64,000 bases of DNA from a virus: positions 1 through 64,000 of IMG/VR virus record IMGVR_UViG_3300030116_003627; one strand, 5' to 3'. This document shows, piece after piece, positions 33,843 to 61,837 of this stretch. Position numbers and translations under genes: made by a program. The stretch's first letter is position 1, and each line of letters opens with the position of its first letter. Below the pieces are notes generated by a model that ran no database searches, was not told the DNA's origin, and worked only from the letters and a program-made list of their open reading frames with translations.

Positions 33843-34070
33843 TCACAATGGTAGAGTATTAATCCGTTCAAGGAAATTTAAGTTACGGGCTTCTGCCTCT
33901 AGTTTATCCTTGATTGAGGTATTTATCAGGTTAGGTATTCGGTCTGGTTCAACCTCTAGTTTACTCATCAAATGTGTTAGTGCATCCATGTAAGACTCTT
34001 TCTTAGAGAATACATGTTCTTCTACCAGTTCACAAAACTTTTTCTTGGTTAGAATTTTATCTGCAAGCAT
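33843..34070 (-). CDS. gp33: Late transcription coactivator gp33
   Basis: 75 residues. The pattern 'ESYMDALTHLMSKLEVEPDR' then IPNLINTSIKDKLEAEARNL (about residues 25-64) with a C-terminal NFLERINTLPL matches gp33 of marine T4-like phages. gp33 bridges RNA polymerase and the sliding clamp at late promoters; its hydrophobic C-terminus is the clamp-binding tail. gp33 is near gp32 in T4 as well. Late promoters in this window (TATAAATA) are its expected targets. It overlaps the end of the radical SAM gene upstream. Confidence 0.85.
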   Translation of the reverse strand: MLADKILTKKKFCELVEEHVFSKKESYMDALTHLMSKLEVEPDRIPNLINTSIKDKLEAEARNLNFLERINTLPL

Positions 34071-34836
34071 TGTACATATCCATTAAACCCTTGTAGGTGT
34101 TAGTTTCAATAGGACAGAGCTTATCACAGTTTTTACACACTGTCAAGTCTTTTCTATTACCTTCTACTAAATTAGTTCTGTAAGACATTAACATTGGATT
34201 CTCTTCTATGTATTCTGATATTGTTTCAGTCTTAATATTCCCCAGAGATATTCTGTTGAACCAATCATGACAACATAGATTGTAATCACCGTTCCAATCA
34301 ATTATAATTCTTTCAAAAATAATACTACATGTTGTATCATCAAGTGTTTTAGTAATATGTTCTTCATATCCCCGACTAGACATATTAAGGCCATACGGAG
34401 TTTCAGTCTTTACTTCTATTCCATAATCTGGTCTATGATCTAGGTGCAGATTATTATATCTGCCTTCCCACTCATTTGTAATTAATGTTGGGTCTAAATC
34501 ATAAATGTCATAGTGAACACTAGAAAACTTTGGTATCAGATGTTCATACTGTTTTAAATTTTTTCCATTAGTAATTAGAAGCAGATTAAACTTTGATAAT
34601 ATGTTAACTGCTTCTTCAAAATACTGATGTAATGTTGGTTCACCCTTTCCTGATAAAACAACATCACCACCAAATTCAATCTCATCTAAATGTTTTGCAA
34701 TTAGTTCTACAGTGTCCAAAGACATGTGTACGTTGCTATTAGGAAACCCAAAAGCATGTGGACAAAATGAACACTGTAGATTACAAAGATCAGTTAGATT
34801 AAGTTCTACTGATTTTAGTACATCAGTAAAAATCAC
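34057..34836 (-). CDS. Radical SAM/SPASM-domain protein
   Basis: 259 residues. Cys18, Cys22 and Cys25 form the CxxxCxxC cluster site (CNLQCSFC). GGDVVLSGKGEPTLHQYF is the GE motif region that binds SAM. CCHDW near residue 190 and CKNCDKLC near residue 238 suggest a second iron-sulfur cluster (SPASM). Such enzymes carry out radical chemistry on peptides, sugars or cofactors; the substrate is unknown. The start is GTG 34836, overlapping the small gene upstream by 14 bases. It stands alone next to gp33. Confidence 0.8.
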   Translation of the reverse strand: MIFTDVLKSVELNLTDLCNLQCSFCPHAFGFPNSNVHMSLDTVELIAKHLDEIEFGGDVVLSGKGEPTLHQYFEEAVNILSKFNLLLITNGKNLKQYEHLIPKFSSVHYDIYDLDPTLITNEWEGRYNNLHLDHRPDYGIEVKTETPYGLNMSSRGYEEHITKTLDDTTCSIIFERIIIDWNGDYNLCCHDWFNRISLGNIKTETISEYIEENPMLMSYRTNLVEGNRKDLTVCKNCDKLCPIETNTYKGLMDMYNACR

Positions 34837-35399: not shown

Positions 35400-36209
35400 T
35401 TAACTCTCCCTAAACACTCTGTGTATATCTCTCAATAGATTCTTGCCATCATCACGTTTCCGTTGGAACACGTTGCGTCCTATAATCATGCCATAACCAC
35501 CATTCTTAGCGATTGCTTCTGCTTCCATTAGGATTGCTTCAGTGCCACGTCTAGACCCCCCAGAGAAGACTACAGGGACGCCACACGCCGCTTTAACAAC
35601 ACGGTCTACACGAATGCACAGAGTTGCCATACTGTCGTAGTTAGGAAGCTTGACCTTGATTACATCAGGTTCTAACTGTGCTGCAATATATGCTGCATGC
35701 ATTGTAGTCTCAAATGATGTAGGATTAAAATCACCACCACGGGGATAGGACCAGAGAATAGTCTTGGCAGTTGGAGATGCATGAGTCTTGATACGACCAA
35801 AGTAGTCAATCATCTCATCTTGATTTGGTGAACCCGGATAAATTGTAAACCCAACACCACCCATTTGTTGAGCAGCTGTTGTGGTTGCATAGACCGCCTG
35901 TGTAGGAGCAAGGTCTTTGTTCAGATTGTTACCATGATTTAATTTCATGATAATATCTTTGGCAAGATGTGGATACCAAAACTTCAATAGGTTAGCAGTG
36001 CGTTGTGGCAGTGCTGTAGCACCTACCAAACCTTCTTCTAACAACTCAGCAATGTAGTCCACCTGATAGTTAACGTCCAGCATCTCAGGATGGTCTGAGG
36101 CATAGAACGCTGCATGTGGTCCATGCTCCACACCTTGATCAATAGGAAGAATAAGAGTATAGTTACCCTTTTTGCCAAACTCTGGTTCACATAAACGCTT
36201 GTGTTTCAT
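35400..36209 (-). CDS. fbaB: Class I fructose-bisphosphate aldolase (DhnA/FbaB type)
   Basis: 269 residues, close to archaeal class I aldolases (about 263). ILPIDQGVEHGPHAAF (residues 20-35) matches the FbaB opening. DVIKVKLPNY (182-191) holds the candidate Schiff-base Lys (185 or 187). VFSGGSRRGTEA (214-225) and GMIIGRNVFQR (240-250) are the phosphate-binding loops. The reaction is reversible cleavage of fructose-1,6-bisphosphate to two triose phosphates. This is an auxiliary metabolic gene; marine cyanophages usually carry transaldolase instead. Its neighbours are an exported protein and a small coupled gene. Related family members act on other ketose phosphates, so exact substrate is unproven. 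Confidence 0.85.
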   Translation of the reverse strand: MKHKRLCEPEFGKKGNYTLILPIDQGVEHGPHAAFYASDHPEMLDVNYQVDYIAELLEEGLVGATALPQRTANLLKFWYPHLAKDIIMKLNHGNNLNKDLAPTQAVYATTTAAQQMGGVGFTIYPGSPNQDEMIDYFGRIKTHASPTAKTILWSYPRGGDFNPTSFETTMHAAYIAAQLEPDVIKVKLPNYDSMATLCIRVDRVVKAACGVPVVFSGGSRRGTEAILMEAEAIAKNGGYGMIIGRNVFQRKRDDGKNLLRDIHRVFRES

Positions 36210-39174: not shown

Positions 39175-40800
39175 TCAAGCCACTGAAAACATCAAAGATG
39201 AACTTTCATCATGATTAGCACATCCTTTAGACCATGCTTTAATGCCAAATGGTTCTTTGTATTTTTGTTTTACTTTTTTATTCAGTCTTGCAATACGGGT
39301 CTTTCCACCTTCTTGATACTCAGACCATTGTAGAGACTTATATTCTTTCATAAGATTATCATATTGACTTTTATTTTTCAGAGATGCTTTAATCTCAGGC
39401 CATCTCTCATCAGGAAAGAAAGAAAGTAAGGTAAAGATTTTGAGATAATCAAAAACTTCGTCGTGTTGAATATATGGTTTTGGCATATTCAGCACCCATT
39501 CTGTAAGGAACCCACCTCTAGAAACATAATTTGGGTCTAGAAATCCAGCATTGACAGCAAGGTTTCTAAGACCAGTACCACGATATGGAACAAAAGATGC
39601 AATAGTTAGTGCATCCCAACCACGACATTCTCTGGTAAACCGAGCAGTCTCTTCTACCATTGCTGGCGTTTCATATGGCATGCCAAGTATGATATTGAAG
39701 TTATATGGAATATCAGATTCATTGATATACTCCATATGCTTTAAGTATGTTTCGTTTGTTACATTTCTGCTCAGAATATCTTTGCGAAACTTCTCATTAC
39801 CAGACTCAAGACCAAATGACATGCGATAACATCCAGCCTCTTTCATCATGGACATTGTTTCTGGTGTACAATTTTCAATACGAGTATTCATCCAGAATGG
39901 AATTTTGTATTTTGACCAAACCTTTGAAAACTCTTCAATCTCTTTTTTTGGTCTAGCCAAGAAAGAATCATCCATAAACATAATCATTTCAGGATCATGC
40001 TTTTCAATAATTGCGACAATTTCTTTTTCAATCACTCTAGCATCTTTACGACGCATGAAATTGCCTTGATTATTTTCTTTGGAGAAAGCACGTTGTGATG
40101 GTGAGTTGCAGTATGTACAATTGTATGGACAACCCCTGTAAGTCTCCATTGGCACAACTCTCTGGAATACTCTACCACCCATAGGTCTTGCCCAGCGAGA
40201 ATCATCAAACAAAGAGAAGTCCGGGGTGATAGCCGCAATGTTACAAAGTTCTTGCTCTACATTTGTGTGCGCATGATCTTTGTACCTGTAAGTAGTTCCT
40301 TTGATATTTTCTAAAGACTCATTTCTCTTCCATGCATGGATAGCATCTCTGACAACATATTCACCCTCATGATGACATACTTGATTAACCACATCATGTT
40401 GCAACAGCATATCTCTTGCTTCTCTAGCAAACACACCGCCAACTATATTAGGAATATTCTTTTCACGAATAGATTCTAGCAGTTCAATACCAAGTTTGTA
40501 AGTATCTTCTGCTACAGACATTAAAATTAAATCTGGATTATATTCTTTGACTTTAAGTTGAAAATCACTTATTAGATTGTCAGGGTCACGAATTTCAAAA
40601 AACTCTTCCGCATCAGATGTTTGATTTGCACCAACACTAGTCAAAGTAACATGTCTATTTTTAAACTGATCAGAATGATATGTTGTTTCAAAAATATCTA
40701 CTTCAACATCTTCTTCTTTGCAGATAGCAGTGAATAACCCCACACTAAGTGCAGGGGTAAACATCATAGGCAAATTTGGATAAAGGATTAGAACCTTCAA
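39175..40800 (-). CDS. B12-binding-type radical SAM protein, copy 1
   Basis: 541 residues. The first 190 residues look like the cobalamin-binding Rossmann domain of class B radical SAM proteins (LILYPNLPMM, PDLILMSVAEDTYKLGIELL, IPNIVGGVFA). ETYRGCPYNCTYCNSP holds the CxxxCxxC cluster residues Cys234, Cys238 and Cys241. SFGLESGNEKFRK and GMPYETP are the other radical SAM strands. The C-terminal KAWSKGCANHD is shared with its neighbour. Such enzymes often methylate unactivated carbons or alter sugars or lipids. The gene overlaps the next copy by 4 bases. Substrate unknown. Confidence 0.8.
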   Translation of the reverse strand: MKVLILYPNLPMMFTPALSVGLFTAICKEEDVEVDIFETTYHSDQFKNRHVTLTSVGANQTSDAEEFFEIRDPDNLISDFQLKVKEYNPDLILMSVAEDTYKLGIELLESIREKNIPNIVGGVFAREARDMLLQHDVVNQVCHHEGEYVVRDAIHAWKRNESLENIKGTTYRYKDHAHTNVEQELCNIAAITPDFSLFDDSRWARPMGGRVFQRVVPMETYRGCPYNCTYCNSPSQRAFSKENNQGNFMRRKDARVIEKEIVAIIEKHDPEMIMFMDDSFLARPKKEIEEFSKVWSKYKIPFWMNTRIENCTPETMSMMKEAGCYRMSFGLESGNEKFRKDILSRNVTNETYLKHMEYINESDIPYNFNIILGMPYETPAMVEETARFTRECRGWDALTIASFVPYRGTGLRNLAVNAGFLDPNYVSRGGFLTEWVLNMPKPYIQHDEVFDYLKIFTLLSFFPDERWPEIKASLKNKSQYDNLMKEYKSLQWSEYQEGGKTRIARLNKKVKQKYKEPFGIKAWSKGCANHDESSSLMFSVA

Positions 40801-42494
40801 GCGACAACTCCAAAATGATCTTCAATACTAGGATCATGATTAGCACAACCAATAGACCATGCCTTTACCCATTCAGCAGTTTGCTTTGGAGTAAATTTCT
40901 TGACCTTATTACTTCTATCTTGCCATGCTTTTTGCAGTCTGTCAATCTTTTCTTGACCACCTTCCTGATATTCTGCACCGTAGTATTCTTTATTACGAAT
41001 TTCTAACAGTTTATCAATATTTTCTTTGGCATCAATCTCAGGCCACATTTCATCAGGGTAATAAGCATAAAGTGGAAATAACTGAACTAAATCAGAAATT
41101 TCTTCTGGCTGTAGATAAGGTTTTGGCATTTTAATTAATGGTGTTCTAAATCCATCATTACTACCATCACCTTTACCAAGTTTTTGCTCAAGTGTCCATG
41201 TTAGATCAGCTTTCATAAAACCAGCTTCAACTGCAATATCTCTTAACTCAGTACCGTGATAAGGTGACCATGCCGACACAGTAAAGGAATCATGTCCACC
41301 ACACTCTCTAGAAAATCTAGCAGAGTCTAGTGCCATTTCTTTTGTCTCATAGGGCATACCAATAATAACATTGATAGAGTATGGAACATTAGACTTATTC
41401 ACATAGTCAATATGCTGTAGATACTTTTCATTAGTAACATTTCTTTTCAGGAAGTCTCTTCTATATTCTTCGTTACCAGACTCAAGACCAAATGTAATTC
41501 TGTACATACCACACTCTTTCATCATCTGCATGATTTCAGGAGTGCAGTTTTCAATGCGAGTGTTGCACCAGAAAGGAGTTTTGTGTTCACTCCAAACTTT
41601 TGCAAACGCCTCCAATTCTTTCATTGGTCTTGCTAGGAATGAGTCATCAACAAAGTTTACATGGTCTACTTGGTGCCGTTCAAAGAAAGTTTCAAACTCT
41701 GCTTTAATAACATCAGCAGACTTCCTTCTCATAAAGTTGCCAGTACCAGCATCCTTAGAGAATGCTCTTTGGCCGGGAGAGTTACAGTATGTGCAAGAAT
41801 AGGGGCAACCACGATATGTTTCCATCTGCATAGAAAAGTTGAACCAACGTCCACCCTGAAAACGTCCAAACCTTTTCTTATCAAAAAATTCAAAGTCTGG
41901 CGTAACTTCATTAATATCTACTAGATCAGCAGGAAGGTTCTTTTGTGCATGATCATCAAATCTATAGGTAGTGCCTCTAATGTCATGAAGAGGATTGCCT
42001 TCACGCAAGCATGTAATAGCATCTCTAACAACTTGCTCGCCTTCTTGATGACAAAGTTGATTTACAACATCATACTTTAGGACTTCTTCAGGAGCAAATG
42101 TAGTGAATACACCACCCATGATATTAGGGATATTTTTATCCCGGATAGATTCTAATAGATCAATACCAACACTAAAAGAATCTTCTACACAAGAAACTAA
42201 GATAAGGTCTGGTTTAAATTCTTCTACTTTAGCAATAAAGTCAGGAACAGCTTGTTTGGATGGTTTGATATCAATCCAATCATTTGCATCTAATTCTGCT
42301 CTACCTTGGTGACCAGACTTTTTTGTTGCAATTCTCCGACTTTGAAATTGGTCTGTATAAGCTGTTGTTTCAAATAAATCTACAGGGGCATTCATTTCCT
42401 TACAAATAGATGTAAGAATTGCCATAGAAATAGGTGGAGAGAACATTAATGGAATGTTAGGGTATACAAGTAATACCCTTGGATTGGCAATCAT
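40797..42494 (-). CDS. B12-binding-type radical SAM protein, copy 2
   Basis: 565 residues, a close paralogue of the downstream gene. It has the same N-terminal Rossmann-like domain (VLLVYPNIPLMFSPP, PDLILVSCVEDSFSVGIDLL, IPNIMGGVFTTFAP), cluster residues Cys230, Cys234 and Cys237 in TYRGCPYSCTYCNSP, a TFGLESGNEEYRR strand and the KAWSIGCANHD end. Tandem placement and shared ends show a duplication. It follows the sugar-linked island, so the pair may act on glycan or lipid-linked sugars, which is inference only. Its start overlaps the upstream stop by 4 bases. Confidence 0.8.
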   Translation of the reverse strand: MIANPRVLLVYPNIPLMFSPPISMAILTSICKEMNAPVDLFETTAYTDQFQSRRIATKKSGHQGRAELDANDWIDIKPSKQAVPDFIAKVEEFKPDLILVSCVEDSFSVGIDLLESIRDKNIPNIMGGVFTTFAPEEVLKYDVVNQLCHQEGEQVVRDAITCLREGNPLHDIRGTTYRFDDHAQKNLPADLVDINEVTPDFEFFDKKRFGRFQGGRWFNFSMQMETYRGCPYSCTYCNSPGQRAFSKDAGTGNFMRRKSADVIKAEFETFFERHQVDHVNFVDDSFLARPMKELEAFAKVWSEHKTPFWCNTRIENCTPEIMQMMKECGMYRITFGLESGNEEYRRDFLKRNVTNEKYLQHIDYVNKSNVPYSINVIIGMPYETKEMALDSARFSRECGGHDSFTVSAWSPYHGTELRDIAVEAGFMKADLTWTLEQKLGKGDGSNDGFRTPLIKMPKPYLQPEEISDLVQLFPLYAYYPDEMWPEIDAKENIDKLLEIRNKEYYGAEYQEGGQEKIDRLQKAWQDRSNKVKKFTPKQTAEWVKAWSIGCANHDPSIEDHFGVVA

Positions 42495-43087
42495 TTGTGA
42501 ACCTTAATATCTAAATTATCTGGTTTTTTAAATGGAACGTTATCATGTTTATGATGGATAACAAATTGCGTACCACTAAACTCTTTAAAAATCCCTTGGA
42601 AGATTGGGCGCCATACACGGGTCAATCTTTCGGTATTAGTGGCTCCCCGATCAGATGGAAGATAGAAATCGGTTTTGGACCGAATATCAAAATCCATAAT
42701 AGAATCAAAACCATAGATGTGAATTTCGTCCGCCTTTAATTTGTTTGCTGCATAGTGAGTTGCAAAGTGACCACAATTGAAATCAGTATAGTTCTTTGCA
42801 TATTTAGGCAAAACCTCATAGAATTCTTTTACTTGTGGGGAGTATTTCATATAGAAGCTTTGTCGCATCTCCATCCACTTCTTAGGTCTTACTCCAAGAA
42901 CCCACGGATAAGGATTTATAACACTACCTTCTGTGATTGCTTTCATCATCTTGAAATCAACCATACAAGAAACATACACATTGGGTACTTCAAATGGGGG
43001 CAGATTGCATGTGATCTTCAAACCCTTTGCAGGTTTGTAATGAACAGCATTATCACCATTACCAATAATATGAACTACTCTAGCCAT
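42491..43087 (-). CDS. Glycan-related protein, sialyltransferase/DUF115-like
   Basis: 198 residues from ATG 43087, with AGGAG about 12 bases upstream (the frame also opens at 43117 without a site). The N-terminus MARVVHIIGNGDNAVHYKPA, with a later HIYGFDSIMDFD, has the Rossmann look of small phage and bacterial proteins related to DUF115 and CST-type sialyltransferases. It opens the glycan island after the radical SAM pair. Enzymatic assignment is tentative; substrate unknown. Confidence 0.5.
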   Translation of the reverse strand: MARVVHIIGNGDNAVHYKPAKGLKITCNLPPFEVPNVYVSCMVDFKMMKAITEGSVINPYPWVLGVRPKKWMEMRQSFYMKYSPQVKEFYEVLPKYAKNYTDFNCGHFATHYAANKLKADEIHIYGFDSIMDFDIRSKTDFYLPSDRGATNTERLTRVWRPIFQGIFKEFSGTQFVIHHKHDNVPFKKPDNLDIKVHK

Positions 43088-43140
43088 TATTCTTTTTAAC
43101 TCCTGATAACCAATCAACTAAAGAGTATCTAGTCACTTTA

Positions 43141-43827
43141 CTACTTCCAATTATCTTTTACCCATTTCTGAGGTTTGTAAATACCAAATGGAGTTTTTAC
43201 AGTATTGTTAATTGCTTGTACAATACTAGGTCTACCATGAAAGCATACAATAGAAAGTTTCTCTGTAAGGTTATCTGGATATACTTGGTACTTGTATGAT
43301 TTTAGTTTACCGGGAAATCTTTTCTGGATAAAATCTCTAGACATGCTAGAAATAGCAGTATTGAGATATTCACCATCGCCTCTAAACTGTTGCATTACTT
43401 GTGGATTATTAGCAAATCTGCGCCAAACATCAGCATTAAAGTTATAGTCCCAAGCCATTACAGCAGATTGTAATCTATTTCTAAGGTATGGTTGATGTTC
43501 ATTTACAGAACCAAGGTCTTCAATCCCCATGAAAATGCCGTCATACTTCAGCAACCAATCAATATTGCTTACGATAAGGGTATCAAGATCAAGATAAACA
43601 ACTCTGCTTCCTAGTCTATGGTCTGTATTGAAAAGTTGTAGTTTATTCCACCAGCCATCATATCCGGGAATAAGTGAAACAGTTCTAATACCATCCATTT
43701 TTTTACGGTCAGTCAGGCACACAAACTGATGCTCTACAGTTGTGTTACGTTCTACCATAGACTTCAGATTATAAACGTAATCCTCAGAAAACTTGTCACC
43801 CCAAAATACACATGCTACAGTAACCAT
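43141..43827 (-). CDS. Glycosyltransferase, GT-A type
   Basis: 228 residues. The N-terminus VTVACVFWGDKFSEDYVYNL is a GT-A nucleotide-binding start. VVYLDLDTLIVSNIDW (about residues 76-91) holds the Asp-x-Asp metal-sugar site. VCFHGRPS near residue 195 is typical of small GT-A enzymes. It probably moves a sugar from a nucleotide donor to a glycan. It is separated by one base from the next island gene. Donor and acceptor are not visible. Confidence 0.75.
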   Translation of the reverse strand: MVTVACVFWGDKFSEDYVYNLKSMVERNTTVEHQFVCLTDRKKMDGIRTVSLIPGYDGWWNKLQLFNTDHRLGSRVVYLDLDTLIVSNIDWLLKYDGIFMGIEDLGSVNEHQPYLRNRLQSAVMAWDYNFNADVWRRFANNPQVMQQFRGDGEYLNTAISSMSRDFIQKRFPGKLKSYKYQVYPDNLTEKLSIVCFHGRPSIVQAINNTVKTPFGIYKPQKWVKDNWK

Positions 43828-43828
43828 T

Positions 43829-44683
43829 TTACATTCCTTTAGAAACTAAGTCCCATGCAAAACCTTCACGAATTTCTTTGACTGTGAATTCTGAATACAA
43901 ATATCTCTTAAACCATTCTTCACGGTCAGGACGATCAGGATTTTCAATGTTACTAAAATCTTTGATAGGATTTGCTACCGGATATGCAATGCTTCTAGGA
44001 CCAGTATATGCAGGGACACCATCAAGTACTGCACGAATACCGGGACTGCTAGACCAGTTCACTACTGCCCAAACATTATCAAAACTCAAATCAAATTCAT
44101 CAAAGGAATTGACTTTCTCTGGCTGCTGAAGTTCATCAACCAAACCATAAAATTTATGAATGCTGATAGGAGCTCTTGGGTGTGGTCGCAAAGCAATAGG
44201 TCTATCTGTATGCTCTCTAATTCTTTCTACAGCTCTCATAATCCAGTCATCAGGTTTCATTAGACCAGACCATTGCAAACTCTTACCATGTTGACATGCA
44301 ATAAGAATTTTGTCTCCGGTGTATGTCCAATCTTTTAATTTGATATCAAACTTTTCTGCTCTGGACATGTCCATATCAATCTTATCCAGATAAGGATAAT
44401 TCATTTTATTGACACCGTTAAGACCAATCTTCCATGTCTTACCACGTTTGATACTGCCAACCTCTAGGACTAGTACAGGTTTGTTTTGATCTTTAAAATG
44501 ATCAAATACTTTTTTGTTAGGTTTCATACGTCCAGACCAAAGTACAGACCAGATAACAGCAACATCAGCTTCCATATCATTATGTACAACATCATGGCCA
44601 GCATTCTTCAGAGAAGTTTCAAATGCTTCAAAGATAGATGGACTGTTTAGTGCACCATGTTCTGTAAATAAACTAAATCGCAT
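43829..44683 (-). CDS. Capsule-type glycosyltransferase-like protein (KpsC/S-like)
   Basis: 284 residues. The pattern 'ILIACQHGKSLQWSGLMKPD', then RPIALRPHPRAP, and VVNWSSSPGIRAVLDGVPAY resembles the GT-B-like capsule proteins that add the first sugars on lipid carriers. It is related in outline to the protein at 45349-46398. It overlaps the following gene by 11 bases. The family link is by pattern and needs a profile search. Confidence 0.6.
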   Translation of the reverse strand: MRFSLFTEHGALNSPSIFEAFETSLKNAGHDVVHNDMEADVAVIWSVLWSGRMKPNKKVFDHFKDQNKPVLVLEVGSIKRGKTWKIGLNGVNKMNYPYLDKIDMDMSRAEKFDIKLKDWTYTGDKILIACQHGKSLQWSGLMKPDDWIMRAVERIREHTDRPIALRPHPRAPISIHKFYGLVDELQQPEKVNSFDEFDLSFDNVWAVVNWSSSPGIRAVLDGVPAYTGPRSIAYPVANPIKDFSNIENPDRPDREEWFKRYLYSEFTVKEIREGFAWDLVSKGM

Positions 44684-45356
44684 CTCTCATCCCCACTTGT
44701 GACATTTCAAAATAATCTCTCCACCAATCTTCAGCATAGTCTGTCTTTTTATATGATTCAAACCAAGGTCCACCTTCAGTGTAGTGCACATTGTTCACGT
44801 CTTCTTTATACTCATATTCGGAAGCAAGCCAGTTCCACTCTAGAGGAAGTCCACCAATCTTTGTCTCATTATCCAGCCATTTAAATTGGTGCAGTTCTAG
44901 ACCAGAAGCAGAGTTAACATAGTCGGGTGTTAGTCTTGTACATTCTGCACAGTTCATCAGCATAAAACTAGACCAGTTTTTCTTTGGGTAAACTGTCTGT
45001 GTCTGGTTCAAGAATTTTGTTTCTGACTTTGGCATATAGTCGTGTTGACAAACTTGCACTGCATACCGATCATCACGCATACGCCATAGTTCTGCGATAT
45101 CTGATTTCATCAACATGTCACAGTCCATAAACAAAGCCCACCCCTGATAGTTCATCAAGTGCGGTACAATGAACCGACTGAAAGAAAATTCTGTAGAAGA
45201 AATCTTATTGCGCTTACGAGAAAAATCATCCTTAATATTCTTCAGGTAAATAGGCGTGATTGCTACAGGTTGTGTACTATGTTTCAAGATAGAATATGAC
45301 AGTGTACTAAATGCAGCTTTTTCTTTGCTGTCATATCCAATGAATACATTAATCAT
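44673..45356 (-). CDS. Glycosyltransferase, GT8-like
   Basis: 227 residues. MINVFIGYDSKEKAAFSTLS is a typical GT8-like opening. LFMDCDMLMKSDI (about residues 75-87) has the Asp-x-Asp site. NNVHYTEGGPWFESY (near residue 190) matches the 'HYT.GGPWF' motif of this group. It transfers a sugar from a nucleotide donor. It overlaps both neighbours by 8-11 bases, so the island is translated as one chain. Confidence 0.75.
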   Translation of the reverse strand: MINVFIGYDSKEKAAFSTLSYSILKHSTQPVAITPIYLKNIKDDFSRKRNKISSTEFSFSRFIVPHLMNYQGWALFMDCDMLMKSDIAELWRMRDDRYAVQVCQHDYMPKSETKFLNQTQTVYPKKNWSSFMLMNCAECTRLTPDYVNSASGLELHQFKWLDNETKIGGLPLEWNWLASEYEYKEDVNNVHYTEGGPWFESYKKTDYAEDWWRDYFEMSQVGMRDAI

Positions 45357-46398
45357 TACCGAACCCTCTTTGCTCTCTCAATTTTCTCCATAAGTCGCCT
45401 TGCTCAACTTCTTCTAGACTCCAATGTGAATTTGCATAATACCTCAAAAACTCATCTCTGTCAACATTTAAATTTGGATTTTCAATATCTTTTAGTTCAC
45501 CAGCTGACCACGGTTTTATATATGCTGCGTCATGAGTAACAAAAGTTGGAACACCTTTCATCATACTTACCGCACCAGCCGTGCTTGTTAGGATAACACT
45601 TGCCCATGCTGTTTTCAGATAAGCATTGGAATAGTCACCCAAAACTTTTGTGACACTGTGGTAGTATTCAACATCCTTAACACTATATTGTAAAAATCTC
45701 AAGACTTCATTTTTGTGTGTCTCATTCATAGCATGTCGGCCAGGATGGTCTTTAACCTTAATAGGTCTGTCAGTGTACTTTCTCAATTCAAGAACTGTTT
45801 CTTTCAACCAAGTATAAACATCAATACCCATGTGTGACCAACCACCAACACCACGATTAAGGAAAATCATGATGTGATCACCCTTAGTTTTCCAATCATG
45901 AACTTTTAAATTCAAATCAGATGTTATTTGTTCAACTCTTTTGTCTACATTATCATCAAATTCCAAAAAATCAGATTGATTAGCATGGATAGAGTTTAGA
46001 GGAAATCTATAATACCTAATCCGGCCAGACTTTTCAAAATGCTTTAGAACATTGCCTTCAAAGAAAAACATGTTCTTTCTGGTTCCGCCTGCTTCTTCAA
46101 AAGAAGTCAGACACTTCTGCCTAAGATCAGAACGGTTTTTTGCACTTGTGTTAATGAAACCCTCTTCAACTTGAACAGCATCACGACCATGTAAAGGCCA
46201 ACCCCACATAAGTCCAAACTCCCTGTCTTGATTTTTGACAGGTTGAGTCATTCCATCATTAGCCCAAATGTATTCGTCTCCACAAGCAGAAACGCCTTTT
46301 ACCCACCGGGCCATCATTTCTTTTTTTTCTTGGGATTGAGCAGTCTTCTGAAAAAACCAGAGTTTGAACTGATTATGTTTTCTTGCTGATCTTTTCAA
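45349..46398 (-). CDS. Capsule-type glycosyltransferase-like protein
   Basis: 349 residues. Key segments: IMIFLNRGVGGWSHMGIDVY, RPIKVKDHPGRHA and VILTSTAGAVSMMKGVPTFV then HDAAYIKPWSAGEL, a GT-B-like end that resembles KpsC/S-type proteins and the neighbour at 43829-44683. The start is TTG 46398; an internal ATG lies at 46314, but the earlier start aligns better with the relative's N-terminus. It overlaps the methyltransferase end. Role in phage- or host-surface glycan building is inferred. Confidence 0.6.
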   Translation of the reverse strand: MKRSARKHNQFKLWFFQKTAQSQEKKEMMARWVKGVSACGDEYIWANDGMTQPVKNQDREFGLMWGWPLHGRDAVQVEEGFINTSAKNRSDLRQKCLTSFEEAGGTRKNMFFFEGNVLKHFEKSGRIRYYRFPLNSIHANQSDFLEFDDNVDKRVEQITSDLNLKVHDWKTKGDHIMIFLNRGVGGWSHMGIDVYTWLKETVLELRKYTDRPIKVKDHPGRHAMNETHKNEVLRFLQYSVKDVEYYHSVTKVLGDYSNAYLKTAWASVILTSTAGAVSMMKGVPTFVTHDAAYIKPWSAGELKDIENPNLNVDRDEFLRYYANSHWSLEEVEQGDLWRKLREQRGFGND

Positions 46399-46993
46399 AG
46401 TTTTTTACCGTCATTAAGTTAAGCCATTCAACTCTGTTCATATCTAGACCAAGATATGTAAGTTGACCTTCTGGAACAAATAGAGGTTCTTGCTTTCCCC
46501 GTTGAACAATACCAACACCACAATCTGTATTAATTGTAAGCATTTCTAGGTCTGGATTATTTCTAAGTTTGACAAAAGCTTTCCATACAGTTCCGTTCCA
46601 AGAACCTGTTCCATTATACTGTTCAGCTGGTCTTTGGTGCCACTCTGTGGGTGGATTGCAATCATGCATAACAATAGTCCCACCCTTTTTCAAGACTTTC
46701 AGACCGTTTTCAACATCTTTGTATACTTGCTCTGCGGTATGAAGTCCATCAACAAAAATAATGTCATACTTATTTTTATTCTGTGCAAAAAATTCATCTG
46801 AAGTCATATGAAAGTTTTCAGATGCTTTTGGATATTCTTTAGGTGCTTCTAAAAAACTTGGATCAACTGCATGTTTAATTTTACAACTAATCCGATCAAA
46901 GCACTCTCTTGAACGTCTTACACCAATCTCTAGATATTTTTCATATTTATTTTCTCTGATTAGAAAATTGATAATATCAAAACGCTCTCGCAT
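46373..46993 (-). CDS. SAM-dependent methyltransferase (class I)
   Basis: 206 residues from ATG 46993, which has GGAG 7 bases upstream; the frame also opens at 47014. YEKYLEIGVRRSRECFD (SAM-binding loop), YDIIFVDGLHTAEQVYKDVE then NGLKVLKKGGTIVMHDCNP is the Methyltransf_24 pattern. It lies between the dehydratase and glycosyltransferases, so it may methylate a sugar or sugar-linked product. Its stop overlaps the next gene's start. Confidence 0.75.
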   Translation of the reverse strand: MRERFDIINFLIRENKYEKYLEIGVRRSRECFDRISCKIKHAVDPSFLEAPKEYPKASENFHMTSDEFFAQNKNKYDIIFVDGLHTAEQVYKDVENGLKVLKKGGTIVMHDCNPPTEWHQRPAEQYNGTGSWNGTVWKAFVKLRNNPDLEMLTINTDCGVGIVQRGKQEPLFVPEGQLTYLGLDMNRVEWLNLMTVKNFEKISKKT

Positions 46994-46994
46994 C

Positions 46995-48020
46995 CTACCA
47001 CTCCAGCCACTCATTATTTTTCAAAGACCAGTCTACAGTTTCAACTAAACGTTCCCGAACAGGTTTAGGTGTCCAGCCCATTTCTGCCATCTTAGAACCG
47101 TCCAAAGCATAACGCAAATCATGTCCTGGCCGTGAGGAATGGAAGTCTACCATTTCATAGTTCAGTTCCTTGCCTTGAATGTCTGCAATCATTTTTGCCA
47201 GTTGAAGATTATCAAGTTCTTCACCACCAACAATATTAAATTTGTGACACTTAGCACCACCATAGTCTGCTTCAAGCTGAGACATATCATAGTTCATGAG
47301 GAAGTAGAGTGCATCTGCCACATCATAGGCGTGAATATAGTGACGTGATCCCGCTTTCTCTTTTAATGGATCACTATGCACAGTGACCTTCTCACCATCC
47401 CGTGCACGTTTGATACACATAGGAATATACTTCTCAGGATGCTGGCGTTCACCGAATACGTTCATTGTATGAGTAATAATAGCAGGAAGGTTGTAAGTGT
47501 TTTCATATGCTACTACCAACTCTTCTGCACCAGCCTTAGATGCACTATAGGGGTTAGTAGAGTTGTATCTGTCATTCTCTTTATAGTGAACACCTTCTGG
47601 TGCAGGACCAAAGACTTCATCTGTAGAGAAGTAAATGAACTTTTCTAGACCTTTTACCTTACGAGCATATTCCAGAATGTTTACTGTGCCTACAACATTG
47701 TCCAAAACAAATTCCATAGGGTAGTCAATACTACGGTCCACATGACTGCCAGCTGCTAAGTGTGCAATATAGTCTACATGTCCAATTGTATTAATAATTT
47801 GTGGATTGAGTTCTGCTTTCAAATCATGAAAGACTGTGCGCACACGGTTCTGTGTTGCTTTTTCATGCCGACGAACAACATCATGCAGTCTGTTCAGATT
47901 ACCACTGTAGTCAAGTCTGTCTAGAGTTACAATATTCCAGTCAGTCTTAGCCAGAAGATAATCAACTACATGGTGCGCAATAAAACCGGCGCCACCTGTA
48001 ATCAGAATAGTTTTAGTCAT
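46995..48020 (-). CDS. rmlB: dTDP-glucose 4,6-dehydratase-like (RmlB family)
   Basis: 341 residues, the usual length for RmlB. ITGGAGFI (7-14) is the NAD loop. STDEVFG (132-138) has the Thr-Asp-Glu catalytic set, and Tyr158-x-x-x-Lys162 (YSASK) completes it. SHVDRSIDYPMEFVLDNVVG is also typical. It turns a nucleotide-glucose into the 4-keto-6-deoxy form, the branch point to rhamnose and many amino or deoxy sugars. No RmlA, RmlC or RmlD is seen here, so the later steps may be host-made. It lies in the middle of the glycan island. Confidence 0.85.
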   Translation of the reverse strand: MTKTILITGGAGFIAHHVVDYLLAKTDWNIVTLDRLDYSGNLNRLHDVVRRHEKATQNRVRTVFHDLKAELNPQIINTIGHVDYIAHLAAGSHVDRSIDYPMEFVLDNVVGTVNILEYARKVKGLEKFIYFSTDEVFGPAPEGVHYKENDRYNSTNPYSASKAGAEELVVAYENTYNLPAIITHTMNVFGERQHPEKYIPMCIKRARDGEKVTVHSDPLKEKAGSRHYIHAYDVADALYFLMNYDMSQLEADYGGAKCHKFNIVGGEELDNLQLAKMIADIQGKELNYEMVDFHSSRPGHDLRYALDGSKMAEMGWTPKPVRERLVETVDWSLKNNEWLEW

Positions 48021-48963
48021 TAGATAGTTCCTTTACCACTTCAATCCATTGTTTAGCAATATTAATATCAGATAAGTTCTGTTGTATATATTCCTGTCCT
48101 AAACGTATTCTTTCCAGTGTCTGCGCAGGATTTTTCAGACACTCAATCATATTATCTACAAAGTTATCATTTACATAAGCATAGTCAGAGAACTTAAGAT
48201 AACTGTCTTGTGGAGATGCAAGTACCATAGTTCCGCATGCTAATCCATCTACAAGTTTGTTATGACTCTTACCAAGAGTAAAAGGATGCTCTGGATCAAT
48301 TGGTAAGATGATAAAATCAGACTTGGTTGTAATGATCTTTTGGATTTTTTCTGTCCACTTTACATTTCTGTATTCACCATTCAAAGACCCAACGCCAGCT
48401 GGCATAGTTCCGTTACGATTAATTACCGTAAATTTAATAGGTGGTAATTCATTTTGCCGTTCTGCTAACGGGCCAAATACTAATTTTTTCCAGTCAGCAT
48501 ATTGTAGGTTACCATCATTGCCATACCAAGTTACTTTTAAAATGTCTTTTGGACTAAAACTAGGTTCATTAAAGTCATAGAATACAGGATCATCAATGAT
48601 AAAGATTTTCTTTTCAATCTTTAACTTTTTACATTCTTCTTCAATGACCTTCTTGAGTCTATCTGTAGTTGTCGTTACAGCATCACATTTCTTCAAAAGT
48701 TCTATTGCTTGACTGCGGCGGCGATCAGAAAAATAATTGTCACAAACATCCCATACAATCTTTTTGCACTTTGTGTTCAGCAGATTGGTGGAAGTTTTCA
48801 TTATCACGCCAATACTATCAGAATTAGTGGGTTTGTTAAACCCACCATCAAATCCAAGTTTCTCCATACCTCTTGATGGAGTAACCATTCTAATTCTTGC
48901 TGATGCTGATACCCTGCCTTTTAAATCAACAGGATTTAAAAACCTAAGATTCTCTTTTGTCAT
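48013..48963 (-). CDS. GT-B-type glycosyltransferase-like protein
   Basis: 316 residues. An N-terminal region lacking the usual GT opening is followed by KKIVWDVCDNYFSDRRRSQA, then LLKKCDAVTTTTDRLKKV, and the C-terminal block HPFTLGKSHNKLVDGLACGT then MVLASPQDSYLKF, the nucleotide-sugar-binding end of GT-B (GT4-like) proteins. It overlaps the dehydratase by 8 bases. It probably adds a sugar on the same glycan; donor unknown. Confidence 0.65.
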   Translation of the reverse strand: MTKENLRFLNPVDLKGRVSASARIRMVTPSRGMEKLGFDGGFNKPTNSDSIGVIMKTSTNLLNTKCKKIVWDVCDNYFSDRRRSQAIELLKKCDAVTTTTDRLKKVIEEECKKLKIEKKIFIIDDPVFYDFNEPSFSPKDILKVTWYGNDGNLQYADWKKLVFGPLAERQNELPPIKFTVINRNGTMPAGVGSLNGEYRNVKWTEKIQKIITTKSDFIILPIDPEHPFTLGKSHNKLVDGLACGTMVLASPQDSYLKFSDYAYVNDNFVDNMIECLKNPAQTLERIRLGQEYIQQNLSDINIAKQWIEVVKELSND

Positions 48964-49549
48964 CTAAAACAATATTTCCTGCAATTGTATATCTTTTCTT
49001 TTCTGACCACTGCGGCTGTACTTCGTGCATCAAATGCCAAGGAAAGATAATGATTTGACCTTCTTTTAAATCATCTGTATACATTTCTTTTTTAAGAAAA
49101 CTTCTATCAAACATTGTATTATGAAATACAGTTGTGTTTGGTTCCTCTAAATGCAATAGATAAATTAAACACAAGTCAGAGTCTGGATGATTATGGGGGT
49201 CATGGTGTCCCATTTTATTATATCGGTTATACCAATAATCAATAAACTTTACGGGGTATGAATTAAAATTTAATTCTTCAATGACTTCACTAACAACAGG
49301 TCTGACAACTTCATCTGTAAAATCATCATAATTTATAGAACTTGATTCGTTAAAGTATGATGTAGAACTATTTCGTTGCTGCTCCCAACCCATAACTGAT
49401 CCATGTTCACTAGTTTTCATAGCAATTTTATCTTGGTGTGAAAGTTCTTTATCAATAGCCGAAACAAAATACTGTTTCCACTTATCATGGTCAGGAACAT
49501 CTTTAACAGCTATAAAATGAGTATGAAACTCTCTAATATCTAAAGTCAT
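48944..49549 (-). CDS. 2OG-Fe(II) oxygenase family protein
   Basis: 201 residues. YNKMGHHDPHNHPDSDLCLI (about residues 109-128) carries the first iron ligands, and FPWHLMHEVQPQWSEKKRYT (near residues 171-190) the distal His and the Arg that binds 2-oxoglutarate. The end AGNIVL matches phage members of this group. It hydroxylates or demodifies an unknown substrate. It overlaps the radical SAM gene upstream and the glycosyltransferase downstream, so it belongs to the island. Confidence 0.75.
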   Translation of the reverse strand: MTLDIREFHTHFIAVKDVPDHDKWKQYFVSAIDKELSHQDKIAMKTSEHGSVMGWEQQRNSSTSYFNESSSINYDDFTDEVVRPVVSEVIEELNFNSYPVKFIDYWYNRYNKMGHHDPHNHPDSDLCLIYLLHLEEPNTTVFHNTMFDRSFLKKEMYTDDLKEGQIIIFPWHLMHEVQPQWSEKKRYTIAGNIVLDDKRES

Positions 49550-50483
49550 TCAAGTCAAACCTTGTACCATGCATTTTATACAAATCCCGAGTATGATTAG
49601 TATATACTAAAACTTCAGGATCGTCAATCAAAAAGTCACAACCCTTACAAAAGTCAGGATAGTTTCCTGTAAGATGTTGCTGTCTTAGTTCTGTATACTT
49701 ATCACCTGTCCAAATGTCTTCAATGCTTTCTTCTGAGACATGACCAAGGATTGCTTCATCATCTCTACCTAAGACTTGGCAGCAAGGGTGCACTGCTCCC
49801 CATTTACCTTCCTCACCCCCAGCACGAATAACAAGGTCAGGAGAGAAAGGTCTACCACAAGTCTTAACTTCACCAGTGCGTTCTTCAGGTGGTCTATAAA
49901 CACCAGACCAGTTGTGCATCTTCCAAATCTCTGTTTGTACTCTAGCACTATCTACAATCTTACGATACTGCTCTACTTCATAGTCAACATTATCATTATC
50001 CATAATAAGATGATAAGTTGATACGTCACAAGAAGAACCAGACTGTTCTACATATTTCTGCATCTCATGCAGATTATCAATTACAATATCAAAGTAATCT
50101 GAATTCATCCATGCTTTATAGGTTTCTTTGTTGTATCCAATGATAGAGAAACGAAAGAAGTCTGCGCCAGCATCTACAACTCGTTTCATAAAGTTACCAC
50201 GCATTTTATATCCGTTGGAGAACATAAATGCTTTGGCGCCATATTTTTTTACAATCTTTACATATTCAGGTAAGTCAGGATTGAGGGTAGGTTCACCAGA
50301 ACCTTCAAGGTTAACTACATTTAACCCCTTATCAGATAACTCTTCAATGATTGCTTCAAAGTTTTTGAGACTAAGTTTTTTTAACCAGTTTTTTCCCCGG
50401 CCGCCGGGGGCGGATTGTGGACACATCTGACAACTGTAGTTGCATCCACCATTAATCTCAATTACCGCTCTGTCTATATTCAT
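49533..50483 (-). CDS. Radical SAM/SPASM protein
   Basis: 316 residues. GGCNYSCQMCPQSAPGG holds Cys14, Cys18 and Cys21. VVNLEGSGEPTLNPDLPEY is the GE motif. PFSPDLVIRAGGEEG, then VHPCCQV and FCKGCDF hold extra Cys residues like SPASM domains. It starts inside the end of a small gene upstream. Likely a sugar- or peptide-modifying radical enzyme of the glycan island; substrate unknown. Confidence 0.8.
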   Translation of the reverse strand: MNIDRAVIEINGGCNYSCQMCPQSAPGGRGKNWLKKLSLKNFEAIIEELSDKGLNVVNLEGSGEPTLNPDLPEYVKIVKKYGAKAFMFSNGYKMRGNFMKRVVDAGADFFRFSIIGYNKETYKAWMNSDYFDIVIDNLHEMQKYVEQSGSSCDVSTYHLIMDNDNVDYEVEQYRKIVDSARVQTEIWKMHNWSGVYRPPEERTGEVKTCGRPFSPDLVIRAGGEEGKWGAVHPCCQVLGRDDEAILGHVSEESIEDIWTGDKYTELRQQHLTGNYPDFCKGCDFLIDDPEVLVYTNHTRDLYKMHGTRFDLNDFRY

Positions 50484-57458: not shown

Positions 57459-57999
57459 TCAATTTATCCAATTCAAGAAAAATATAGTGAGCATGGTCAA
57501 AAGCACGCATTGCCTCTTCCGCCATGTCATTATTTAGTTTTTCTTTTAACTTCTCTTTCAACATATCCTGATCTTCATCAAACTGGTAAAAGTTGGTAGG
57601 AAACTTATCACCAAGTCGTTTAGAGATAATTTGCCCGCCGGACAAGTCGCCCATGTGTCGTACATAAACATGTGCCAAGATTTTACTTCGGTTGTATCTA
57701 ATAGACATAAGATAGTCCATATACTCCCGAACAGAATCTAGCAGCGGAGCAAGGGGAAACTCATCTTTCATTTCTTTATGATCTTGCCAGATTTTCTCGG
57801 CCCGACGAATAGACTCAATACCATCCAAAGCATCAGCCTGCCATGCAAGGTTCTCTAGGGTGTTGTAAACAAATCCCATATTATAGAGGTAAACACAATA
57901 CTCAAATGGAGTAACTTTGCCCGACACAAGTTTCTTAGCAAACTCTGAACGTTCTGCTTCTTTATGATGGTTCATTGTTAGTTCACGGAGTTTAAGCAT
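57412..57999 (-). CDS. ho1: Heme oxygenase
   Basis: 195 residues. Near the start HHKEAERSEF carries the proximal His12, and HMGDLSGGQIISKRL (115-129) is the heme-oxygenase signature. It opens heme to biliverdin, carbon monoxide and iron. It lies between guaC (8-base overlap) and pcyX (47-base overlap), which makes a two-step path from heme to phycobilin likely. It is a little shorter than cyanobacterial enzymes (about 240 residues), mostly at the C-terminus. Confidence 0.92.
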   Translation of the reverse strand: MLKLRELTMNHHKEAERSEFAKKLVSGKVTPFEYCVYLYNMGFVYNTLENLAWQADALDGIESIRRAEKIWQDHKEMKDEFPLAPLLDSVREYMDYLMSIRYNRSKILAHVYVRHMGDLSGGQIISKRLGDKFPTNFYQFDEDQDMLKEKLKEKLNNDMAEEAMRAFDHAHYIFLELDKLNDMGSLGGNPEISGT

Positions 58000-59101
58000 T
58001 TTCGTATACCTTATTGTATTGATTGTTCACTCGCACAAATGTTGCACACTTAGTAAGGTCTTTAATCTGCCTAGCGCCAATGTAGGTACAAGTAGAACGC
58101 AGACCACCAAGAATATACTGCATTGTATCTGCTACAGGACCACGATAGGGTACAAGAATATCACGACCTTCAGATGCACGATAGTTCTTCAGTCCACCTG
58201 CATGCTTCTTGTTAGCTGTATTGGATGACATACCATAGAACTGTCTAAACTCTTTGCGTTCAATAACAGGCTTATAGATTTCATCTTCTTTCATATAGTA
58301 GTATTCATTGTTATGGATATACTTGTAGACTGGTTCACCACCACCTTCGTCATGACCAGCAAGCATTCCACCTAGCATTACAAAGTCGGCTCCTGCGGCA
58401 AATGCTTTTGCTACATCGCCCGGAGAAACGCAACCACCGTCAGCGACGATGTGACCACCAAGGCCATGAGCAGCATCCGCACACTCCATAACCGTTGATA
58501 GTTGCGGATAACCAACACCAGTAACAATACGAGTTGTGCAAACACTTCCAGGCCCAATACCCACTTTAACCACGTCAGCTCCATTTAGAATTAACTCCTG
58601 TGTCTGATCAGCGGTAACCACGTTACCTGCAATGATAATATTATTTACACCACATAGTTCACGAATGGACTTTACAAACTTGACATACTTCTCCATATAC
58701 CCATTTGGAGTGTCAATACAAATTACTGGAAACTTATTCTTAAGAGAACGAACCTTATCATAGTCTGCGTCTTGCATACCTACAGTCAAACACAGACTTT
58801 CTTTCATACGGTCTTTGTCGTAAATGTCTGCATGTAGATGGAGTTTAGTAAGTTCATCAACACTGTAACTTTTATTCATGGCAACCATCATGTTCTCTTT
58901 TGAGAATGCTTTTGCCATATTAATAGTGCCAACACCATCCATGTTGGCAGCAATAATAGGGATAACTTCAAGTGTTCTTTGAGAGTGAGGAAATTTAAAC
59001 TGTCTGGTGAGTTTAACTTCTTTTCGGGATTCTAGAGTAGATCGTTTCGGTCTTAGAAGAACATCCGAATAGTCTAACTTAGTATCACTCTCAATATGCA
59101 T
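57992..59101 (-). CDS. guaC: GMP reductase (IMPDH family)
   Basis: 369 residues, a little longer than E. coli GuaC (347). [20 protein letters not shown] holds the catalytic Cys188, and [25 protein letters not shown] and [12 protein letters not shown] are GuaC signatures. Unlike IMP dehydrogenase it lacks a CBS insert. It turns GMP to IMP with NADPH, feeding adenine nucleotide pools. It heads the run with ho and pcyX and follows tRNA-Thr. An auxiliary metabolic gene for nucleotide supply is the simple reading. Confidence 0.9.
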
Positions 59102-60196: not shown

Positions 60197-61837
60197 CTAA
60201 TAAGTCCATCTAAGGGGCATATTAAATTTTGCCCAATCTACATTAATTTTTTCACCAAACAACTTTTCTAGTTCTTGTTCTGTTTGTATATAGTTGTCTG
60301 CCATAACTTTCAATTCACCCATTCTCATACTTCTAGTAAACCAGATAGTTTCAAACTCATCAGTAATTGTGGTTTCGCTTTCAGGTGCAAAAACTCTTCT
60401 TATCAAATTTCTTTGCATCTCCACACAACTACTCAAGATAGGGTATTCATCTAAATTATCATAAAAATCTTTTGTCTGTTTTGTTAAATCATAAATTTTA
60501 TCCGTTGCAATGTTAGTGTTAACAAAATTATGCCAGAACCATTGGTAGTCAAACATTTTTACTAATTCTTCTAAATCAAAACTTAGTGACTCATACATAA
60601 TTTCATAGTATTGGAATTTACTAAAAAATACCTTTTTTGTTTTAATCTTGTGTTTTTCTTGATATTCTGGTGTACCAAAAGAAGTGTTAGCAACTACAAG
60701 AGCAATAAACGTCATGGTCTTGTCAATACCAAGATTGTGTATATTATGATGTAAGGTTTGAAGCCAACTGTCAGCAGTTTCACCGGGAAGAGTGATAATC
60801 ATTTCTGCTGTGATTTCATTACCTAAAGCTTTTTGTTCTGCAATAACAGGTAAAAGTTTTTCATTCTTAATATTTGCTCTATCAATAATCTCTAGCACTT
60901 CTGGTGTGTGGGTTTGAAAACTAACTTTCATATTATTTTGAGTAAGAGAAAGTTGATTCTCTAATAAGTCAACAATTTTGGTTAGATTTTTACTACCATT
61001 TTTTGCAAGACCACCGTAAATAACATTAACCTTATGATTATACTTTTCTTGGAAATCTACCATCTTTTCCAAAACAGTCACATCATCTTTAAAAATGCCA
61101 AAGTTAGCATTTGTAATAAACATGCTATTCACTTTTTTCTTGTATAAAAACTCTAGTTCATCTACACATTTTTGTAACTCAAACTTTGTGATTTTACTAC
61201 TCGCATTGCCACCCCAATCACAAAAAGCACATTTATATGGACAACCCCTATCAGTTTCTACAGGGACCATTATTCTTCCTACATTATATTTTTCTGGATT
61301 ATCAAAAACATAGTCAAAAATACCATCACTATATGGCGTCGGAAGTTCTCTAATTTTATTACCACTGATAGGTTCATCTAATAACCATTCTTCAAATGCA
61401 TATTCTGCTAGACCTTCTATGTGTACATCAACCCAAGGACGATCTTCTCTATACTTTTCTAATACATCCTTGTGTTTAGGTACTTGTGGCCCACCATATA
61501 CTACAATACCATCAGGTTTAATTTTTTTATAATGCTCAGAGATTAAATCACTATAATATTGATTCCATGTATAGTTGGTCAATCCAAAAATATCTGTCTC
61601 TGACAAAATATCATCAAATTCTTCTACAGGTTTAGGTATGAATAAAGGATCGTAGAAATTGTATTTTTTATTAATTTTTGGATTTTTTATGGCATGCCAA
61701 ATCAAACATCCAGAGGAATAAGGCAACCATGCATCTAATCCTTCTGATGTTGCATATTTCTTAGTTTTTTTACTTTCCCAAAGTGGAATGTGATTAAAAT
61801 TACCAAGAAGAATATTTTTCTTTGATGTGACTTCCAT
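60197..61837 (-). CDS. B12-binding-type radical SAM protein, third
   Basis: 546 residues. The N-terminal half has the Rossmann-like strand pattern of class B radical SAM proteins (DIFGLTNYTWNQYY, KPDGIVVYGGPQVPKH). VETDRGCPYKCAFCDWGG holds Cys199, Cys203 and Cys206, and the CDWGG ending is typical of a subgroup that includes B12-dependent enzymes. VSFQTHTPEVLEIIDRAN and MIITLPGETADSW follow. It differs clearly from the tandem pair at 39175-42494. It follows tRNA-Arg. Substrate unknown. Confidence 0.8.
   Translation of the reverse strand: MEVTSKKNILLGNFNHIPLWESKKTKKYATSEGLDAWLPYSSGCLIWHAIKNPKINKKYNFYDPLFIPKPVEEFDDILSETDIFGLTNYTWNQYYSDLISEHYKKIKPDGIVVYGGPQVPKHKDVLEKYREDRPWVDVHIEGLAEYAFEEWLLDEPISGNKIRELPTPYSDGIFDYVFDNPEKYNVGRIMVPVETDRGCPYKCAFCDWGGNASSKITKFELQKCVDELEFLYKKKVNSMFITNANFGIFKDDVTVLEKMVDFQEKYNHKVNVIYGGLAKNGSKNLTKIVDLLENQLSLTQNNMKVSFQTHTPEVLEIIDRANIKNEKLLPVIAEQKALGNEITAEMIITLPGETADSWLQTLHHNIHNLGIDKTMTFIALVVANTSFGTPEYQEKHKIKTKKVFFSKFQYYEIMYESLSFDLEELVKMFDYQWFWHNFVNTNIATDKIYDLTKQTKDFYDNLDEYPILSSCVEMQRNLIRRVFAPESETTITDEFETIWFTRSMRMGELKVMADNYIQTEQELEKLFGEKINVDWAKFNMPLRWTY

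Follow-up and report, generated by a model that had tools for sequence, protein, structure and literature searches.

Two homologous cobalamin-type radical SAM enzymes encoded beside a glycan island in a T4-like phage genome

The radical S-adenosylmethionine (SAM) enzymes OxsB, TsrM, TokK, CysS, and MgmA have in common an N-terminal Rossmann domain of the cobalamin type, a core with a CxxxCxxC cluster motif, and a helical C-terminal part. AprD4, the radical SAM 1,2-diol dehydratase of apramycin, acts on a sugar, has a similar overall fold, and is not known to need cobalamin. The residue below the cobalt in solved cobalamin enzymes is Asn186 in OxsB, Arg69 in TsrM, and Trp76 in TokK (PMC13331322), and the B12-type radical SAM enzymes GenK and GenD1 of gentamicin C-methylate sugars within sugar-tailoring clusters (PMC5461906). 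Among phages, the T4-like marine pelagimyophages carry hypervariable host-recognition islands rich in glycosyltransferases and including radical SAM cassettes, to which the portion of that paper drawn on here gives no B12-type assignment (PMC7029224). Here, we describe two overlapping genes, A and B, in IMG/VR virus record IMGVR_UViG_3300030116_003627 (68,239 bases, of which the window analyzed comprises 64 kb). We tentatively read their products as members of a virus-specific family of class-1 (Rossmann-type) cobalamin-dependent radical SAM enzymes. They probably modify a sugar of the host surface, perhaps by C-methylation with methylcobalamin from the host or by another radical change.

The locus holds two open reading frames, of 541 (B) and 565 (A) residues, that share, as an earlier note on this DNA had recorded, their domain order, the CxxxCxxC motif, a KAWSxGCANHD tail (KAWSKGCANHD and KAWSIGCANHD), and an overlap of 4 bases. 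A and B align end to end with 285 of 567 positions identical (50%; 580 bits by BLASTP); the features that they share are beyond chance and, judged by sequence, the two are certainly homologous. Both match the Pfam Radical_SAM family (PF04055; 2e-24 and 5e-22). In the Pfam B12-binding family (PF02310), A scores 36.8 bits and B 28.4 bits, so that the cut-off of 32.1 bits is formally passed by the 565-residue protein alone and narrowly missed by B. The cluster cysteines, the Glu-Asp pair in the loop after strand 3, and the GG and EGE motifs are all kept in A, and just ahead of the radical SAM core A reads RFQGG where its homologues have RPMGG (W209F, P212F, M213Q). Because A and B overlap by TTGA and a 208-residue gene upstream overlaps A by ATGA, the three genes look translationally coupled.

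AlphaFold models of the two proteins are equally confident (predicted local distance difference test scores of 87.2 and 86.6), with low-confidence parts confined to the last 24–27 residues and one loop of A. Foldseek searches with these models return MgmA, TsrM, OxsB, CysS, TokK, and AprD4 as the best PDB folds, the class-1 cobalamin enzymes among them with E-values of 1e-14 to 1e-20. The cobalamin-type Rossmann fold is present in both models, which answers the check that the earlier note had proposed. Because AprD4, which is not known to need cobalamin, shares the overall fold, retention of the fold does not settle cobalamin binding. The family profile aligns with MgmA, OxsB, TokK, and CysS across the cobalamin domain and with AprD4 across the radical core only, the N-terminal domain of AprD4 failing to align. 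Across the 39 homologues, which come from viruses, bacteria, and archaea, the CxxxCxxC, GG, and EGE motifs are invariant. The loop after strand 3 is strongly conserved, its Glu without exception and the Asp next to it nearly so. Cobalamin binding is favored by this alignment through the cobalamin domain together with the conserved GG, EGE, and post-strand-3 loop, and a need for cobalamin from the host, also suggested by the note, is plausible.

The pair is only 13–18% identical to OxsB, TsrM, TokK, CysS, and MgmA, and unlike these enzymes the A/B family has a Glu-Asp in the loop expected under the cobalt, an insert of ∼40 residues before strand 3, and, in its viral members, a C-terminal CxxHD tail. 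Trp76 of TokK aligns with Asp105 of A, within an uncertainty of one to two residues; a Glu-Asp below the cobalt is thus a lead rather than a result. The CxxHD motif (residues 527–531 of B) is invariant in 24 aligned viral members, though its tail is disordered in the model, and some alphaproteobacterial relatives have C-x-x-N-D or C-x-x-N-P at this position. The tail is perhaps a lid or a metal site.

A search with a 24-sequence alignment recovered 39 loci in the viral collection and 41 in prokaryote genomes, whereas a 5-sequence alignment had found none in the prokaryote genome contigs. The viral relatives fall into about 25 uncultured lineages. Among 50,697 named phage records there is no close relative, with one remote match (23%) for A and none for B, and PHROGs contains no family for either protein. 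In the tree, 31 of the 32 viral rows form a single clade (support 100/99), sister to sequences from Rhodospirillales, other alphaproteobacteria, and one member of the Bdellovibrionales (support for the union 100/100); gene transfer between such bacteria and phages, in either direction, is likely. Pfam and NCBIfam place both proteins in the known B12-binding/radical SAM class, of which they are intact members in a virus-specific branch. The kind of enzyme is already known, and what is new to the records searched is the virus-specific subfamily and its links; our literature search found no paper describing these phage B12-type radical SAM enzymes. Two proteins of uncultured Caudovirales in BFVD, annotated as B12-binding-like or COG1032 (A0A6J7XS70 and A0A6J5LDK6), are also predicted to have a B12-type radical SAM fold, yet at 13–15% identity to the pair they belong to other subfamilies.

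Sugar genes flank the cellular relatives in 28 of 33 loci, the neighborhood count having taken in 33 of the 41 prokaryote loci; they encode cytidylyltransferases, nucleotidyltransferases of the nucleoside triphosphate transferase kind, epimerases, GT4 glycosyltransferases, aminotransferases, and TIM-barrel isomerases. In viruses, counted sugar-gene clusters occur within eight genes in 15 of 25 lineages. Sugar context is therefore general in the cellular relatives, and in the other 10 viral lineages no sugar-gene cluster of the kinds counted was seen within that distance. Frequent occurrence without sugar genes, which the note had named as evidence against its reading, is in part observed. The most consistent viral partner is an orthologue of the SPASM radical SAM enzyme encoded in the island of the window, which occurs in 12 of 26 lineages and is concentrated close to the B12-type gene (9 of 145 neighbor slots within three genes vs 3 of 304 farther away, p = 0.0027). 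Motif-filtered counts place SPASM enzymes in 14 of 25 viral lineages and 13 of 33 cellular loci; a raw count of 39 of 72 from a single-linkage neighbor cluster (c1) was discarded, as this cluster mixes SPASM enzymes with 2-hydroxyacid dehydrogenases. Phage C48C1 has this SPASM gene (62% identical) and the 208-residue gene, with no match to the B12-type pair. A cluster that recurs in cells (loci L058, L050, L065, and L071) combines a cytidylyltransferase, a xylose-isomerase-like TIM barrel, a HisC-like aminotransferase, an epimerase, and both SPASM and B12-type radical SAM enzymes, and looks like a pathway to an unusual sugar activated with cytidine monophosphate.

If A and B are sugar C-methylases, a minus-strand glycan operon would express them during infection. 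The 4Fe-4S cluster and SAM would generate a 5'-deoxyadenosyl radical that abstracts hydrogen from a sugar at an unactivated carbon; the sugar might be nucleotide-activated, lipid-linked, or part of the finished glycan, and host-derived methylcobalamin would then donate the methyl group. B would perform the ordinary step of the family, and A, a diverged relative of older origin that entered between the 208-residue gene and B, would probably modify a different position or a different sugar. The changed surface glycan of the host could alter receptors and exclude other phages; a receptor change is the benefit proposed for pelagimyophage glycosyltransferases (PMC7029224). GenK and GenD1 are parallels in their described chemistry, although what their clusters produce is an antibiotic and not a surface glycan. 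This reading builds on homology, the cluster motif, the cobalamin-type domain, the single-copy relatives, the old split between A and B, and the glycan context, to which it would add cobalamin binding, methylation chemistry, a sugar substrate, and superinfection exclusion as the putative benefit. Methylation of a lipid, which the note had offered as an alternative, found no support.

Several points weigh against C-methylation of a sugar, beginning with the nature of the case for it, which draws on sequence, predicted structure, and gene context. Both proteins lie far under the cut-offs of every named NCBIfam subfamily: the best profile matches of B are HpnJ (TIGR03471; 110 of 577.6 bits), BchE (TIGR02026; 85 of 481), and PhpK (TIGR04479; 94 of 600), and membership in these was rejected. 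The 10 viral lineages without counted sugar clusters within eight genes, several of them short contigs, do have a carbamoyltransferase and a methyltransferase of the FkbM type among their neighbors. At the position expected below the cobalt, the family has Glu/Asp in place of the Asn, Arg, or Trp of OxsB, TsrM, and TokK, with the alignment uncertainty given above. Finally, the solved enzyme nearest in sequence over the radical core is AprD4, the top PDB sequence match there (5e-24 and 1.4e-12) and one of the top fold matches. A and B might then be sugar dehydratases or redox enzymes of the AprD4 kind, using the Rossmann domain as a scaffold and removing water or oxygen without methyl transfer, and the acidic residues at the lower face would suit such a role. 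We consider this unlikely, given that true cobalamin enzymes, and not AprD4, align over the cobalamin domain, that viruses and cells alike strongly conserve the GG, EGE, and post-strand-3 elements, and that the AprD4 equivalog NF033070 scores 50.2 and 60.4 bits against a cut-off of 500. No AprD3-like partner was recognized among the scanned neighbors, a scan that was not a systematic search and passed over some open reading frames.

The enzymes may also depend on cobalamin and yet not methylate. The better matches of the pair include OxsB and BchE, the latter a cobalamin-dependent non-methylase (PMC13142503); the nearby 2-oxoglutarate (2OG)-dependent oxygenase and the SPASM enzyme show that the island carries functions for oxidative tailoring. 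An OxsB- or BchE-like reaction, forming a ring in or oxidizing a glycan or nucleotide sugar, nevertheless seems rather unlikely to us, methylation being the reaction of most characterized members of the class and no specific feature pointing to ring chemistry. That the substrate is instead a protein or peptide, for instance of the virion or host, with the sugar genes incidental, we regard as quite improbable. SPASM enzymes often act on peptides, the SPASM enzyme is the most consistent viral partner, MgmA, the top fold match, methylates a protein glutamine, and counted sugar clusters are missing from the 10 viral lineages; yet over its SPASM part the SPASM partner is closest, among solved enzymes, to the aminocyclitol dehydrogenase BtrN, the cellular relatives are located in sugar-nucleotide clusters, and no precursor-peptide gene was recognized beside the pair, where no systematic search was made.

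Apart from this phage, the pair was found on one contig alone, a twin that is 99.88% identical; the other viral loci, some on short contigs, are single-copy. In the close relative L009, the 208-residue gene is directly followed by the orthologue of B and the DNA alignment jumps from window position 42491 to 40793, so that A is missing there gene-exactly. In the tree, A splits off before B, L009, L010, and L080 (99/97), and approximately unbiased (AU) tests reject the groupings {A,B} (p = 0.0003) and {A,B,L009} (p = 0.003). Recent tandem duplication is rejected by these tests and is hard to square with the gene-exact lack of A in L009. The note had called the genes a duplicated pair; A and B are not each other's closest relatives, and as the trees reject recent duplication in this lineage the term is loosely true at best. 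Its suggestion of two related steps on one substrate was a guess, and relatives manage with a single copy. On these trees, B is the ordinary member of the family, and A has one of two origins, early duplication followed by loss in the others or acquisition from an unseen related phage. Adjacent homologue pairs also occur in two Nitrospirota genomes (L058:7905-11068 and L064:4287-7612), within sugar-nucleotide-type clusters; pairing thus recurs across the wider family.

A sits on a long branch (0.76–0.95) and is alone among the 39 homologues in having lost the RP of RPMGG. This loss is suggestive of a changed pocket and a new function, and merely suggestive, since the 8 losses of A at invariant columns do not exceed the 9 of L032, a single-copy member on a long branch. 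A is not a clear pseudogene, as its motifs are intact, and that it is a decaying or inactive copy, kept as a heterodimer partner of B with a regulatory or structural role rather than as a second catalyst, is very doubtful despite the long branch and the missing RP, because all its cluster cysteines and cofactor-domain motifs remain, its losses resemble those of L032, and its model is as confident as that of B.

In its most elaborate form, which we think unlikely to hold as a whole, sugar C-methylation would make the viral clade and its SPASM partner a phage-made, B12-dependent pathway to a branched (C-methylated) surface sugar, with a new Glu-Asp environment for cobalamin, an active site covered by the CxxHD tail, and A added with an altered pocket for a further position. 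Were sugar C-methylation correct, lytic aquatic phages would carry oxygen-sensitive, B12-dependent radical chemistry that remodels the surface sugars of their hosts, and the outcome of infection would be tied to the cobalamin supply of the host. With about 25 lineages in viruses and 33 loci in cells, the family provides a testable set whose gene clusters point to a sugar substrate.

Table 1. Genes and sequence features of the window; positions are counted from its first base.
Feature	Position	Strand	Remarks
B (P0003)	39175..40800	-	541 residues, TTG start; cobalamin-type radical SAM enzyme (Pfam and model)
B, residues			cluster Cys C224/C228/C231; post-strand-3 loop E98-D99; GG 121-122; EGE 145-147; RPMGG 205-209; C-terminal CxxHD 527-531
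A stop/B start overlap	40797..40800	-	4 nucleotides, TTGA
A (P0002)	40797..42494	-	565 residues, ATG start; divergent homologue of B
A, residues			cluster Cys C230/C234/C237; E104-D105; GG 127-128; EGE 151-153
208-residue gene	42491..43117	-	putatively GT42/DUF115-type transferase-like by eye; no Pfam match
228-residue protein	43141..43827	-	GT8-like by eye; no Pfam match
284-residue protein	43829..44683	-	GT-B/capsule-type by eye; no Pfam match; clusters with the 45349-46398 protein
GT8 glycosyltransferase	44673..45356	-	PF01501, 4.9e-7
349-residue protein	45349..46398	-	GT-B/capsule-type by eye; no Pfam match
Methyltransferase	46373..47014	-	Methyltransf_24, 3.6e-12
Nucleotide-sugar 4,6-dehydratase/epimerase family, RmlB-like	46995..48020	-	TIGR01181, 258.5 bits, under the equivalog cut-off of 365
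316-residue protein	48013..48963	-	glycosyltransferase by eye; no family match
2OG-Fe(II) oxygenase	48944..49549	-	in the glycan island
SPASM radical SAM enzyme	49533..50483	-	nearest solved relative over SPASM part: BtrN
Third cobalamin-type radical SAM enzyme (P0001)	60197..61837	-	TokK/CysS-like

The pair sits at the end of an island that encodes transferases of GT8 and other kinds together with one methyltransferase, the RmlB-like dehydratase, the 2OG-Fe oxygenase, and the SPASM enzyme (Table 1), and the gene and domain content of the window bears out the adjoining glycan island that the note had described. L009, L010, and L080 each have the 208-residue gene immediately ahead of their one B12-type enzyme.

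The window is a T4-like myovirus genome, with a gp32-type single-strand binding protein, baseplate wedge and hub proteins, and PhoH. Even the closest named phages are far off: the baseplate wedge is 34.5% identical to that of phage C48C1 and 32% to that of Pelagibacter phage HTVC008M, a pelagimyophage to which this phage is thus only distantly related, and the single-stranded DNA-binding protein is 59% identical to that of cyanophage P-RSM6.

Besides the pair and the SPASM enzyme of the island, the window encodes two further radical SAM proteins. P0001 matches TokK at 8e-38 through both domains and CysS at 1e-29 (phmmer), and its W91 aligns with Trp76 of TokK, the lower-face Trp being retained. 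It has no Pfam B12 match and no match in named phages, and its 154.7 bits in the KedN5/TokK-type C-methyltransferase model NF033712 lie below the cut-off of 700. Relatives at 24–39% identity occur in seven other viral contigs (L090-L096). With this TokK/CysS-like enzyme, the phage has three cobalamin-type and two SPASM radical SAM genes, the second SPASM protein being shorter and lying outside the glycan island (34057-34836, minus strand). Elsewhere on the minus strand are a phage gene resembling DhnA/class I fructose-bisphosphate aldolases (35400-36209) and one with an IMP dehydrogenase/GMP reductase domain (57992-59101; 245 bits).

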